Source: Sphingomonas sp. Root720 (GTDB lineage: Bacteria; Pseudomonadota; Alphaproteobacteria; Sphingomonadales; Sphingomonadaceae). From it: 64,000 nucleotides of DNA. The notes below the pieces were generated by a model that had not been told where the DNA came from, did not search any database, and saw only the letters and a program-made list of their open reading frames with translations. Below, piece by piece: positions 36,830 to 40,996 of this stretch. The DNA lies in assembly GCF_001428605.1 (NCBI RefSeq), contig NZ_LMID01000012.1:248001-312000 (forward strand), written 5' to 3'. Made by a program: the position numbers and the translations under genes. Numbering within the stretch: the first letter of the stretch is position 1; each line of letters begins with the position of its first letter.

Positions 36830-37078
36830 TCAGAGGTCCACCCCGGCGGCGATCGCCTCGAGCTTGCGGATGCGCTCCTTGAGGTCGGCCAGTTCGATGC
36901 GCGCGGCGGGCGACGGGCCGCCGGCGGGCTCGGGCATGGCGGCGGCTGCGCGGCGATCGAGCTTCATCCGCTCGAGCTCCAGCCAGCCGCGCCAGCCGCT
37001 GAGCGCGGCCCAGGCGACCACGCACAGGCCGACCAGGCCCGCGCCGCTGATGGTCATCCACAATATGGGATCGGTCAT
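36830..37078 (-). CDS. Small membrane/coiled-coil protein, array member 4
   Basis: An 82-residue protein: one membrane helix (about 5-28), basic middle, C-terminal coiled coil RIELADLKERIRKLEAIAAGVDL. It is the last and most divergent of four consecutive leftward genes with the same design. It has the LK.R...LE.IA heptads of array members 1 and 3 but lacks the C-terminal EI..LR signature. It resembles PspB in size and layout. The gap to member 3 is 71 bases. Function unknown. Confidence 0.78.
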   Translation of the reverse strand: MTDPILWMTISGAGLVGLCVVAWAALSGWRGWLELERMKLDRRAAAAMPEPAGGPSPAARIELADLKERIRKLEAIAAGVDL

Positions 37079-37149
37079 GCTTCTCGTTCCCTCAGGGCGA
37101 CGCCGGGGCGGATGCTGGCATCCGCGGGCTCGGTGCCGCGATGGTTGGC

Positions 37150-37413
37150 TCAGTCGCGGTGCCGGAGCGCCTCGATCTCGCGATCGAGGGACAGGCCGCG
37201 GTCATTGTCGGTCGCGATCCTCTCGAGCACCGCGACCCGCTCCTTGAGCGCGCGCAGTTCGGCCCGGAGCCGCTCGTTCTCGCCGTCGTCGGGGCGGACG
37301 AAGTCCTCGCCCTTGCCGCGGCGGACGACGCCATATTTGGCGCGATAGACGCTGGCGATCGCCGAAATCGCGACGATCAGCACGATCATGGTGAAGACGC
37401 CGATCTCCGGCAT
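37150..37413 (-). CDS. Small membrane/coiled-coil protein, array member 3
   Basis: An 87-residue protein with an N-terminal membrane helix (VFTMIVLIVAISAIASVY), a polar linker, then the coiled coil NERLRAELRALKERVAVLER and the shared tail IATDNDRGLSLDREIEALR. This tail matches members 1 and 2 and the C-terminus of PspC. It is 21 bases downstream of member 2. Probably an inner-membrane adaptor of PspB type; no catalytic residues are visible. Confidence 0.83.
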   Translation of the reverse strand: MPEIGVFTMIVLIVAISAIASVYRAKYGVVRRGKGEDFVRPDDGENERLRAELRALKERVAVLERIATDNDRGLSLDREIEALRHRD

Positions 37414-37434
37414 TGTCGGTCTCCTGTGGTCGGT

Positions 37435-37692
37435 TCAGTTCAGCGGCTGGTCGCGCAGCCGGTCGATCTCGTCGGCCAACAGGGCGGAACGGTCGGTCAG
37501 GATGCGTTCGAGCACCGCGACCCGCTGCTCGAGCCGTTCGGTCTTGGCGACATATTGGGCGGCCTTCTCGGCGGTCTCGGCCGAGATCGCCTCGATCCGC
37601 TTTTCCTTCAGCCGGAACCAGTCGGTGAGCACCCAGGCGACGATGGCGAGGATCGGGATGCTCAGCACCGTGAAGGGGAAGATATTGGACAT
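37435..37692 (-). CDS. Small membrane/coiled-coil protein, array member 2
   Basis: An 85-residue protein: membrane helix FPFTVLSIPILAIVAWVLT at the N-terminus, then a long charged coiled coil (AEKAAQYVAKTERLEQRVAVLERI) and tail LTDRSALLADEIDRLRD. It is the closest in plan to PspB (LVFHYVTQWKK...LDERLGTLERI). It is 18 bases downstream of member 1. Confidence 0.85.
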   Translation of the reverse strand: MSNIFPFTVLSIPILAIVAWVLTDWFRLKEKRIEAISAETAEKAAQYVAKTERLEQRVAVLERILTDRSALLADEIDRLRDQPLN

Positions 37693-37710
37693 TGTCGCGT
37701 CTCCCTCGCG

Positions 37711-38025
37711 TCAGTTGGCCGGGCCGCGCAACGCGTCGATCTCGCGATCGAGACGATAGCTGCTATCGGTGACGATCCGCTCGACGGTGGCGAGCCGCTC
37801 CTTGATCGCCGACAGCTCGGCGCGGAGCTGCGCGTTCTCGCCGGAGAGCAGCTTGATCCGCTCGCTGGTCTCGTCGCTGGTGCGCGGATAGACCGCCTTG
37901 CCCCAGCTGTTCTCCAGCGGATAGCCGTGCCGGATCCGGAGCCAGGTGGTGAACACCCAGGCGGCCAGGCCGAGCATGCCGAGCAGGGCGGCAACCGGAG
38001 CGAAGGCTTCGAATGGCAACGTCAT
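37711..38025 (-). CDS. Small membrane/coiled-coil protein, array member 1
   Basis: A 104-residue protein, first of the four-gene array. Membrane helix VAALLGMLGLAAWVFTTWL, a 20-residue polar insert, coiled coil SGENAQLRAELSAIKERLA and tail TVERIVTDSSYRLDREIDALR. AGGGG upstream of ATG gives the ribosome binding site. The 149-base gap to pspC, with a perfect palindrome, suggests its own promoter. Confidence 0.84.
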   Translation of the reverse strand: MTLPFEAFAPVAALLGMLGLAAWVFTTWLRIRHGYPLENSWGKAVYPRTSDETSERIKLLSGENAQLRAELSAIKERLATVERIVTDSSYRLDREIDALRGPAN

Positions 38026-38069
38026 CGTTCAAACCCCTAAACTCTGAGCCGATCACCGTTTACACCGAT

Positions 38070-38092
38070 GTTTGTCGAATTTTTCGACAAAC
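38070..38092. promoter_or_regulatory. Perfect palindrome before the small-gene array
   Basis: GTTTGTCGAA-TTT-TTCGACAAAC: 10-base arms around 3 bases, between pspC and array member 1. No T tract follows on either strand, so an operator is more likely than a terminator. Confidence 0.6.
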
Positions 38093-38174
38093 GCCATGGG
38101 GCGTCGACGAACGGCGCGAAGTGCGTAATCTTATTCCAACGTTCGTGCGGATGCTTGAAACATCCGGTCGCGAA

Positions 38175-38558
38175 TCAGCGCAGCGCGTCGATCTCGCGGG
38201 CCAGCGCCGAATTATGGCTGGTCACATGCGTCTCGATGTCGGCGATTCGGCGATCGATGTCGCGGAACTTGGCGCGGACGTCGCGGACCGAGGCGCCCGG
38301 CCGGGCCCGCACCGTCTGCCAGAATTTGTCGTCCTCGCGGCTGGCACCGTAGAACTCGCCCGGCTTGTCGTTGGCGAGCCAGTTGACCACCAGATAGGCG
38401 ACCACCGTCCACGGGAAACCGCCGATCAGCGTGAGGAGCACCGTGCCGACCCGGACCAGCGTGACGTCGATCCCGGTATAGTCGGCGAGCCCGGCGCAGA
38501 CGCCCAGCCATTTGCGGTTACGCTTGTCGAGGTAGAATTTGGTGCGGCGAGCGGACAT
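38175..38558 (-). CDS. pspC: PspC-domain membrane protein
   Basis: A 127-residue protein. The PspC domain (about 5-65) has KFYLDKRNRKWLGVCAGLADYTGID and a hydrophobic helix FPWTVVAYLVVNWL. The C-terminal part is a coiled coil ending SALAREIDALR, the signature seen in three small array proteins downstream. In E. coli PspB and PspC sense envelope damage and release PspF from PspA. It is located 33 bases after pspB. Confidence 0.92.
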   Translation of the reverse strand: MSARRTKFYLDKRNRKWLGVCAGLADYTGIDVTLVRVGTVLLTLIGGFPWTVVAYLVVNWLANDKPGEFYGASREDDKFWQTVRARPGASVRDVRAKFRDIDRRIADIETHVTSHNSALAREIDALR

Positions 38559-38591
38559 TTCGAACTCCTTCCTGTTGGCGGCGGCCTGCGA

Positions 38592-38861
38592 TCAAGGCTC
38601 GCGGCGCCACTCTTCCTCATGGGCACGGTCGACGCTCTGGCGGGGGCGCCAGGCGGGATCCTGGCTGTCCAGGATCCGCTCCAGCGTGCCGAGCCGTTCG
38701 TCGAGCCGGCGGGCCATGTCGTGCATGTCGTCGAGAAGCTTCTCGTCCTCGACCGTCAGGCCGCCATTCTTCTTCCACTGGGTGACATAGTGGAAGACCA
38801 GCCAGGGCAGGCCCAGGAAGAGGATGCCGACGACGACGATCGGGACGAGGGTGTCTTCCAT
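38592..38861 (-). CDS. pspB: Phage shock protein B
   Basis: An 89-residue protein with one N-terminal membrane helix (LVPIVVVGILFLGLPWLVFHYVTQWKK) and a cytoplasmic coiled coil (DEKLLDDMHDMARRLDERLGTLERIL), the standard PspB layout, then a short basic-acidic tail. It is three bases downstream of pspA. It transmits envelope stress with PspC. Confidence 0.92.
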   Translation of the reverse strand: MEDTLVPIVVVGILFLGLPWLVFHYVTQWKKNGGLTVEDEKLLDDMHDMARRLDERLGTLERILDSQDPAWRPRQSVDRAHEEEWRREP

Positions 38862-38864
38862 CGA

Positions 38865-39530
38865 TCAGGCTCCCTTGGCCTTCGCCTTCAGCGCGGCGAG
38901 CTCGGCATCGACCTTGTCGGCGGAGCGCAGCTCGGCGATCTCCTCCTCGAGGGTCTTCGGCGCGGCGCCCATGCCCGCCGCTTCGGCGCGGCCCTCGGCA
39001 TAGTCGACCCGGCGCTCGAGCAGCTCGAAGCGCGAAAAGGCCTCGTCGACCTTCGCACCGGCATACATCTCGCGCATCTTCGCGCGGTTGTTCGCCGATT
39101 CGAGCCGGGTGACGATGCTGTTCTGGCGGGCCCGCGCCTCGCGCAGCTTGCCCTGCAGCTTGGCGATGTCGCCCTCGGACGCCTTGAGCGCCTCGTCGAG
39201 CAGGGTGATCTCGTCGTGCAGCTGCTCGCCGAGGTCGGCGGCCTTCTGCTTCTCGATCAGCGCGGCCTTGGCGAGGTCCTCGCGGTCCTTCGACAGCGCC
39301 AGCTCGGCCTTTTCCAGCCAGTTGGCCTGGACGGTATCGAGCTTGGCGATCTGGCGGCGCAGCTCCTTCTGGTCGGCGATCGTGCGCGCCGCGGAAGCGC
39401 GGACCTCGACCAGCGTCTCCTCCATCTCGAGGATGATCATGCGGATCATCTTCGCCGGGTCTTCCGCCTTGTCGAGCAGGTCGGTGACGTTGGCGGCGAT
39501 GATGTCGCGGGTTCGGGAGAAAATCCCCAT
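38865..39530 (-). CDS. pspA: Phage shock protein A
   Basis: A 221-residue PspA/IM30 coiled-coil protein. The N-terminal amphipathic segment [33 protein letters not shown] is followed by four long helices with [21 protein letters not shown]. It binds stressed membrane as an oligomer and, in the resting state, inhibits PspF. It is second in the unit behind the miniprotein gene, with a 98-base gap. Confidence 0.95.
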
Positions 39531-39628
39531 CTTCAGGCTCCTTGGCTTACGCTCTGCACTGCTGGCGATACTGTGTCGGAGAAGCGCCCGGCGGATATCC
39601 TATACCCGTTGGACCCGGACGCCACGGC

Positions 39629-39775
39629 TTAGTCGACGATCTGGACGACCTTGGCGGCCGCCACATCGGCACGCGCCGGGGCAACCGCACCGGTCACGCA
39701 GATAACCGACAGGACCGCGGCACCGATCGTCGAGACGGTGATGCGCTGGAGGTCGATCTTGTCGAACTTGAACAT
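39629..39775 (-). CDS. 48-residue secreted or membrane miniprotein, first gene of the psp unit
   Basis: The reading frame encodes [20 protein letters not shown]..., a hydrophobic core [11 protein letters not shown], a signal-peptidase-like site APARA and a short tail [13 protein letters not shown]. An AGGGA ribosome binding site lies 8 bases before the ATG (39784-39788 on the minus strand). It is the first open frame after the sigma54 promoter (about 48 bases of leader). Nothing was recognised by family. Either a tiny secreted peptide (about 13 residues after cleavage) or a single-pass membrane peptide. Confidence 0.75.
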
Positions 39776-39833: not shown

Positions 39834-39850
39834 TGCAGGGACCGTGCCAA
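39834..39850 (-). promoter_or_regulatory. Sigma54 (-24/-12) promoter of the psp unit
   Basis: On the minus strand TTGGCACGGTCCCTGCA has the invariant GG and GC ten bases apart and fits the TTGGCACG-N4-TTGCA consensus except for one base. The predicted transcript starts near 39823, about 48 bases before the miniprotein gene. Confidence 0.88.
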
Positions 39851-39913: not shown

Positions 39914-39940
39914 TTGCCACAACTTGGCAAAATGCGCCAA
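39914..39940. promoter_or_regulatory. Probable PspF upstream activating sites
   Basis: Two overlapping inverted repeats: TTGCCA-CAACT-TGGCAA (39914-39930) and TTGGC-AAAATGC-GCCAA (39924-39940). They lie about 90-115 bases upstream of the predicted psp transcript start, the usual enhancer distance, and reach into the 5' end of pspF. Confidence 0.65.
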
Positions 39941-39949
39941 CTGTCGGCC

Positions 39950-40992
<1,043 letters not shown>

Positions 40993-40996
<4 letters not shown>

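Follow-up and report, generated by a model that had tools for sequence, protein, structure and literature searches.

The window considered here, 64,000 nucleotides of Sphingomonas sp. Root720 (contig NZ_LMID01000012.1, positions 248,001 to 312,000 of the forward strand), contains a psp operon in which pspA, pspB and pspC are followed by four further small genes, P1 to P4, termed here the array. The favored reading, held at a probability a little above one half (about 0.55), is that the array is a family-wide, variable set of single-span inner-membrane proteins of the PspF/sigma-54 psp operon of the Sphingomonadaceae. The elements of the locus, from the activator gene to the last array gene, are the following (ORF, open reading frame).

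39932-40996, plus strand: divergent pspF-type sigma-54 activator gene, recognized by eye from the sequence, its start codon picked by eye
39834-39849, minus strand: sigma-54 type promoter-like site TGGCACGGTCCCTGCA
39629-39775, minus strand: leader ORF of 48 codons encoding a single hydrophobic segment; it lies between pspA and the sigma-54 site
38865-39530, minus strand: pspA (TIGR02977, 277.3 bits against a cut-off of 242.95)
38592-38861, minus strand: canonical pspB (PF06667, 89.2 bits against a cut-off of 25.6)
38175-38558, minus strand: pspC (TIGR02978, 119.3 bits against a cut-off of 104), with the C-terminal tail FRDIDRRIADIETHVTSHNSALAREIDALR
38070-38092: perfect inverted repeat (arms of 10 bp, loop of 3 bases) within the 149 nt that separate pspC from P1
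37711-38025, minus strand: P1, 104 residues; a predicted N-out membrane helix, a conserved GYPLE..WG stretch, a long helix and a PspC-type tail
37435-37692, minus strand: P2, 85 residues; PspB-like over its full length, with a PspC-type tail
37150-37413, minus strand: P3, 87 residues; of all array types, the closest to the stand-alone relatives from other parts of the phylum
36830-37078, minus strand: P4, 82 residues; the last array gene, with a strongly conserved end DLKERIRKLEAIAAGVDL in a 38-row alignment

The presence of pspA, a divergent pspF (by eye), a sigma-54 site and closely spaced co-directional genes identifies a PspF-controlled psp operon. The motifs GERGTGKE and GAFTGA in the product of 39932-40996 are typical of pspF-type activators. 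A sequence-only reading of the window had reported four consecutive small genes of 82 to 104 residues behind pspABC, each encoding one N-terminal membrane helix; all four are ORFs at the positions listed above, and a hydrophobic segment is predicted in each product. The locus end at 39775, as drawn there, turned out to be the start of the 48-codon leader ORF ahead of pspA. Judged from ratios of nonsynonymous to synonymous substitution (dN/dS) of 0.12 to 0.49 against six genus-mate loci, P1 to P4 are under purifying selection and look like genuine genes.

The hydrophobic segment of each of P1 to P4 is preceded by no lysine or arginine and followed by two to five within the next 15 residues. Because these residues are absent before the segment and present after it, an N-out, C-in topology like that of PspB is predicted. 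For P1, the sole array protein folded with AlphaFold (AF2), the model comprises helices at residues 5-33 and 51-100, with a mean predicted local distance difference test score (pLDDT) of 79.9 and a predicted template modeling score (pTM) of 0.38. The PspB-type architecture of a single N-out span and a cytoplasmic helical domain is thus present by prediction, from hydrophobicity and charge in P1 to P4 and from AF2 in P1. A coiled coil had been ascribed to all four proteins; a heptad-periodicity test bears this out for P1 alone among them (p 0.046), with PspB at p 0.0005 and PspC at 0.09.

At their C termini, P1, P2 and P3 read VERIVTD...DREIDALR, LERILTD...DEIDRLR and LERIATD...DREIEALR, respectively. 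PspC ends in LAREIDALR and PspB contains LERILDS, confirming what the sequence-only reading had seen of both. The general form LER-I-x-T-D...E-I-x-x-L, a pattern composed after the alignments had been seen, occurs in 4 of the 310 window ORFs of at least 60 residues, and these are P1, P2, P3 and PspC, confirming the earlier observation that three of the proteins share their ending with PspC. P4 retains a reduced KERIRKLEAIA core. By tree and profiles, array proteins across the family sort into types P0, P1, P2 (a and b), P3 and P4 plus strays (the P1 alignment has 35 rows, that of P4 38), and each of the five types has distinct conserved motifs that are maintained across the family. Away from psp genes, a soluble-looking protein with CxxC pairs (L137:4728-5117, plus strand) ends in a tail of the P0 type, LETIATDPAERTAREIEALR, which hints that the tail can move between proteins as a module.

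Kinship within the array is evident from profile-profile comparison. The P0, P1, P2a, P2b and P3 profiles match one another with probabilities of 97.2-99.9% (P0-P1 99.9%, P0-P3 99.6%, P0-P2a 99.3%, P1-P3 98.8%, P2a-P3 98.3%), and by these profiles the P0 to P3 types are paralogs of one another, forming one family. The resemblance to PspB that had been supposed for all four proteins holds for P2a, which matches canonical PspB over its full length (95.6%), as well as for P2b (91.2%), P3 (90.3%) and P0 (89.4%), with P1 at 42.1%; it fails for P4 (1.3-2.2%). The P4 profile matches P2a at 91.3% and P3 at 87.8%, and P4 is on this evidence tied less firmly to P1 to P3, and not to PspB. The PspC tail of the family is matched by P1 (95.6%), P0 (91.0%), P3 (87.6%), P2a (71.7%) and P2b (21.8%), and the canonical PspC tail by P1 (81.2%), P0 (65.4%) and P2b (48.3%). 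Reversed-profile controls mostly remain below 10%, the highest being 25.3 (P3 against the canonical PspC tail), 22.4 and 18.8.

With PF06667 (cut-off 25.6 bits), P2 passes narrowly at 25.9, P3 fails at 12.3, and P1 and P4 are not listed; with TIGR02976 (cut-off 51.7), P2 (32.6) and P3 (15.8) both fall short. At an expect value (E) of 0.01, PF06667 is matched by 15 of 33 P2 rows. The PspC domain (PF04024) has no match in P1 to P4; residues 64-99 of P1 align with positions 86-121 of the TIGR02978 PspC model (E 1.1e-4, far under the model cut-off). The P3 and P2b profiles are matched by Escherichia coli PspB at E 2.8e-5 and 8e-4, respectively (Z 1000; 1.5 and 120 once the profiles are reversed), and the P4 profile no better than reversed P4; E. 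coli PspC matches the P1 profile weakly (E 0.05 at Z 1000). Searched against its own genome, P1 has no matches other than itself and P3 at E 0.001, and P3 none other than itself, P1 and P2 at E up to 10. Chance similarity among helices is ruled out for P1 and P3 by these own-genome searches together with the reversed profiles, and for P2 by profiles alone. Weak matches of P1 relatives to bZIP, ZapB and DUF4164 vary from row to row and were taken as chance.

The array is distributed throughout the window's family. A PspA search of 296 genomes of the order (213 of the window's family, 83 of sister families) found pspA in 282, namely 212 of the 213 and 70 of the 83. From the best-scoring PspA places among the matches listed, 60 regions were taken, comprising 42 family loci from 27 of the family's 50 sampled genera and 18 loci from six sister families. 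Array genes accompany the psp locus downstream of pspC in 42/42 family loci, in line with the co-occurrence anticipated by the sequence-only reading, and number 1 (1 locus), 2 (1), 3 (4), 4 (14), 5 (12), 6 (8) or 8 (2) per locus. These counts exclude short ORFs of about 40-54 codons in array gaps and include two longer ORFs (L015, L035) entered manually. P4 is present in 40 of the 42 loci and PspB in 41. Of the 18 sister-family loci, three contain a single array-type gene, located after a second short PspC, and all three belong to family f8; the other 15 contain none, L046 and L056 being interrupted by contig ends. An additional short PspC-domain gene, lacking the tail, stands beside a full pspC at L038:2463-2654 (plus strand), L059-L061 and L063, and behind pspC in the sister-family locus L047 lies a true second PspB of 74 residues with the canonical PspB end.

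Within the window's genus, full-length P1 occurs in 8 of 14 genomes, one of which holds another P1-like copy. Among the best 80 of 551 loci matched by the P1 profile in named genomes are Rhizorhabdus, Sphingobium, Sphingopyxis, Sphingomonas, Novosphingobium, Croceibacterium, Sphingosinicella and other Sphingomonadaceae genera, together with metagenome bins with broader labels; the closest named relative among these 80 is that of Rhizorhabdus histidinilytica UM2 (90%). These labels point to the Sphingomonadaceae, broadly taken, as the family concerned and to Rhizorhabdus as the probable genus. A P1-profile match in another alphaproteobacterium (L081, E 2.5e-4) is a soluble-looking helical protein with no psp matches beside it and was dropped.

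A genome-wide search for P4 matched 206 of the 296 genomes, 204/213 in the family and 2/83 elsewhere (weak, E 6.7e-5 and 7.1e-4); adjacency to pspA was checked solely in the fetched loci. Of the nine P4-less family genomes, eight possess pspA together with one or more array genes at the psp locus, and the six extra loci fetched for missing P4 all contain array genes. The ninth, G266, is the sole pspA-less genome of the 213, and no pspA, PspB, P3-type or P4 match was found in it. These distributions bear on the possibility that the array is an independent envelope-stabilizing module, for example a membrane scaffold or a partner of secretins, which would use the psp promoter without touching PspA. 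Several family genomes without P1 and P4 favor such a module, as do relatives that stand away from psp genes in other bacteria (below). It is nonetheless unlikely, given that the array is missing together with pspA in G266, that 212/212 pspA-bearing family genomes have P4 or, in the 8 without it, another array gene at the psp locus, and that the array and PspC have a tail in common.

Gene spacing in the 42 family loci is mostly tight. Of 277 gaps between neighboring genes (start codons picked by script), 254 measure 50 nt or less and 12 exceed 100 nt; in 78 cases the neighbors overlap by 1 or 4 nt. The pspC gene is followed by the next array gene within 85 nt in 36 of the 42. A TGGCA[C/T]-N6-TGC site is located within 600 nt upstream of pspA in 41/42 family and 17/18 sister-family loci, and no sigma-54 motif occurs within the operons of the 42 family loci or in the 600 nt that follow. 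Only 2/10 genus loci (the window and one of nine genus mates) contain the inverted repeat of 38070-38092, and an operator or second promoter before P1 was rejected on that basis. A counterpart of the leader ORF, overlooked until now, encodes 36-75 residues with a hydrophobic segment at the same place in 40/45 loci (the 42 family loci, the window and two near relatives), compared with 1/45 in a reverse-strand control. In several sister-family loci, a different, arginine-rich ORF was seen by eye at this place. In L005, L006, L007, L008, L009 and L011, the gap before P3 holds an extra ORF (about 39-54 codons) whose product has a membrane segment and ends in a basic motif, D-R-P-x-R-R.

Relatives of the array exist outside the family. 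With the P3 profile, 10/385 genomes of the class were matched: five belong to the family, G489 is a strong match outside it (8e-23), and the remaining four are weak (G343, G378, G496 and G551; 4e-5 to 1e-3). In the phylum, 31/299 genomes were matched: 13 of the family, two resembling G489 and 16 from other classes (perhaps Gammaproteobacteria), four of these weakly (G709, G780, G903 and G914). Four stand-alone relatives compared with NCBIfam all match the PspB and PspC models under cut-off, the PspC match reaching the last positions; the L119 protein, for example, matches PspB at E 2.2e-10 and the PspC model over 44-121 of 121 at E 3.2e-6. At L136 and L119, from two genomes that do not belong to the family, stand-alone relatives form adjacent pairs, and tandem duplication has therefore also occurred outside the psp operon.

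In a tree of 137 rows, PspB (34 rows) is split from the array and stand-alone proteins (103 rows) with a support of 100 in the Shimodaira-Hasegawa-like approximate likelihood ratio test (SH-aLRT), and the array groups do not fall inside the PspB clade; the tree comes from a short alignment of 84 columns and a quick search, and 63/132 of its inner branches are unresolved. Because of this split, the array probably represents a sister family of PspB and not young pspB copies, one that would have been recruited or diverged early and subsequently multiplied. The sequence-only reading had proposed tandem duplication of a PspB-like ancestor; paralogy of the types (97.2-99.9%) and kinship to PspB (P2a 95.6%) agree with that proposal, but the copies are not duplicates of pspB itself (tree support 100). 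The same split, provided that the short alignment is not deceptive, rules out recent pspB copies and makes it very improbable that the array merely raises dosage, with recent tandem copies doing the job of PspB. For dosage, one can cite the score of P2 over the Pfam PspB cut-off, the PspB duplicates mentioned by Ravi et al. (2024) and the real second PspB with a canonical end behind pspC in L047; besides the tree, the motifs of P0, P1, P2, P3 and P4, distinct and kept family-wide, argue against it.

Three genomes provide a natural view of what array proteins might do. G146, G186 and G053 have no PF06667 match anywhere in the genome; they retain PspA, PspC, P2-type and P3 genes and are without P4 and P1. 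In G053, PspC is 88 residues long and its tail is absent, whereas P2 and P3 bear the tail. Since P2 and P3 are kept in these genomes without PspB, and in G053 beside a tailless PspC, this suggests that P2 and P3 may be able to stand in for both PspB and the PspC tail.

PspB and PspC form an inner-membrane complex. In E. coli, PspB self-associates, and a PspC fragment of residues 69-119 binds PspA with PspB present (PMC3068692); the same paper considers residues 69-119 possibly periplasmic, with a second topology. Against this background, the array proteins are best regarded, at slightly better than even odds and on sequence evidence, as co-induced inner-membrane adaptors presenting extra PspC-type tails to PspA. 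Each would have a PspB-like anchor, N-out with a cytoplasmic helix, and P1 to P3 in addition carry the terminal tail of PspC. Under membrane stress, the array proteins would be made together with PspA and would assemble with PspC (and PspB) via membrane and cytoplasmic helices. The multiple tails thereby offered to PspA could set both the number of PspA docking sites and the timing of PspF release. Expressed from the same promoter as PspA, array proteins would serve as additional PspA docking or PspC-gating subunits. The sphingomonad psp system, as the evidence suggests, is a multi-adaptor version of the stress system.

The same machinery could instead act in the off state. As extra PspB-type silencers, the array proteins would hold the PspC tail in the unstressed cell and compete with PspA, raising the threshold or tuning stress specificity. 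Their PspB-like bodies speak for such a role, as does a 2016 study by Flores-Kim and Darwin in which, going by the title alone, cytoplasmic contacts between PspB and PspC reportedly silence the response. However, the end of P1 to P3 is of the PspC and not the PspB type, and in G053 the PspC tail is gone, yet P2 and P3 remain; silencing is consequently rated as possible, and clearly less probable than the presentation of tails to PspA.

Several results weigh against the adaptor reading. The family's own PspB matches the array profiles weakly (P1 55.7%, P2a 51.6%, P0 38.7%, P2b 38.6%, P3 6.7%), the canonical PspC tail matches P2a at 9.2% and P3 at 46.8% (reversed control, 25.3%), and PspB and the PspC tail match each other directly at 0.4-8.1%. 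Neither Pfam PspB nor Pfam PspC is matched at E 0.01 by any of the 35 P1 rows or the 38 P4 rows, and P2 as a single sequence reaches P1 and P3 only at E 0.013 and 0.031, with unrelated matches from 0.59. The T-D tail is missing from P4, for which no link to PspB could be demonstrated. Heptad periodicity is absent in P2 (p 0.65), P3 (0.29) and P4 (0.58), which hence give no sign of helix pairing. In the window itself, pspC and P1 are separated by 149 nt; a single transcript is not certain, and a transcription break is therefore possible there. Finally, PspA, PspB or PspC was found within about 5 kb of stand-alone relatives in 0/18 regions of 12 genomes, a set excluding the eight weak matches and the stronger G943 and G881, and the family therefore need not act in a psp operon there.

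More tentatively, the Sphingomonadaceae may have split the PspC sensor-effector, placing its docking tail on a combinatorial, fast-changing PspB-like set that could replace PspB and, as in G053, even the PspC tail. PspA would then have a modular scaffold of species-dependent size, and the same family without neighboring psp genes elsewhere would constitute an unrecognized class of membrane adaptor. Most of what is known about the psp mechanism comes from enterobacteria that have a single PspB and a single PspC. The 1 to 8 additional, mostly tail-bearing PspB-like proteins thus offer natural variants for the study of stress sensing by PspB and PspC and of how PspA is handed over. They bear on the part that binds PspA, the need for PspB and the importance of docking-site number, and ready-made tests are offered by the genomes that lack PspB, alone or together with the PspC tail. 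Elsewhere in the phylum, the sister family of PspB is claimed at cut-off by no Pfam or NCBIfam model searched.

The array can be compared with several known systems. E. coli PspD is likewise encoded by a small gene after pspC, but it matches no array profile (E 41 or worse, Z 1000), and kinship to PspD was ruled out. In Zymomonas mobilis, the psp genes ZMO1063-1065 and a small neighbor, ZMO1062 ("pspD"), rise under ethanol or xylose stress (PMC3495753, PMC8645129), and the operon of a relative is therefore stress-responsive; the text seen of these two papers mentions no array gene. ZMO1062, which locus-tag order would place before pspA, may be the counterpart of the leader ORF. The sequence-only reading knew of no described psp system of this form, which is nearly right. 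The example AOL22920.1 of Ravi et al. is presumably an Erythrobacter protein. One clause of that study (mSystems 2024, PMC11237479) refers to PspB duplicates in the psp operon; like the array, these are additional PspB-like genes in a pspABC operon and probably include it, but the text seen gives no taxon, number, subfamilies, PspC-type tail or P4. A literature search outside which most subscription journals and supplements lay found no paper on array genes beyond this clause. The main text of a phyletic survey (PMC9239133) contains no word beginning "sphingo", and a Novosphingobium genome comparison, in the part seen, merely lists a PspC among genes (PMC5443232).

Canonical PspB and the array proteins have in common one N-terminal span and a cytoplasmic helix (both predicted for the array), the R-x-x-x-h-E core and their operon position. 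They differ in that the array forms a separate clade, that only P2 of P1 to P4 reaches the Pfam cut-off, and that PspB ends in ILD.E.PDWR and the array in T-D...E-I-x-x-L. With PspC, P1 to P4 do not share the PspC domain; the tail (TIGR02978 86-121), as it occurs in the family's PspC, is matched by the P1, P0 and P3 profiles. A divergent PspB fused to the C-terminal end of PspC has been reported (Ravi et al. 2024, PMC11237479). Such a fusion would account for the tail common to PspC and the array, and it is consistent with PspB, the PspC end and the array family having arisen from one source.

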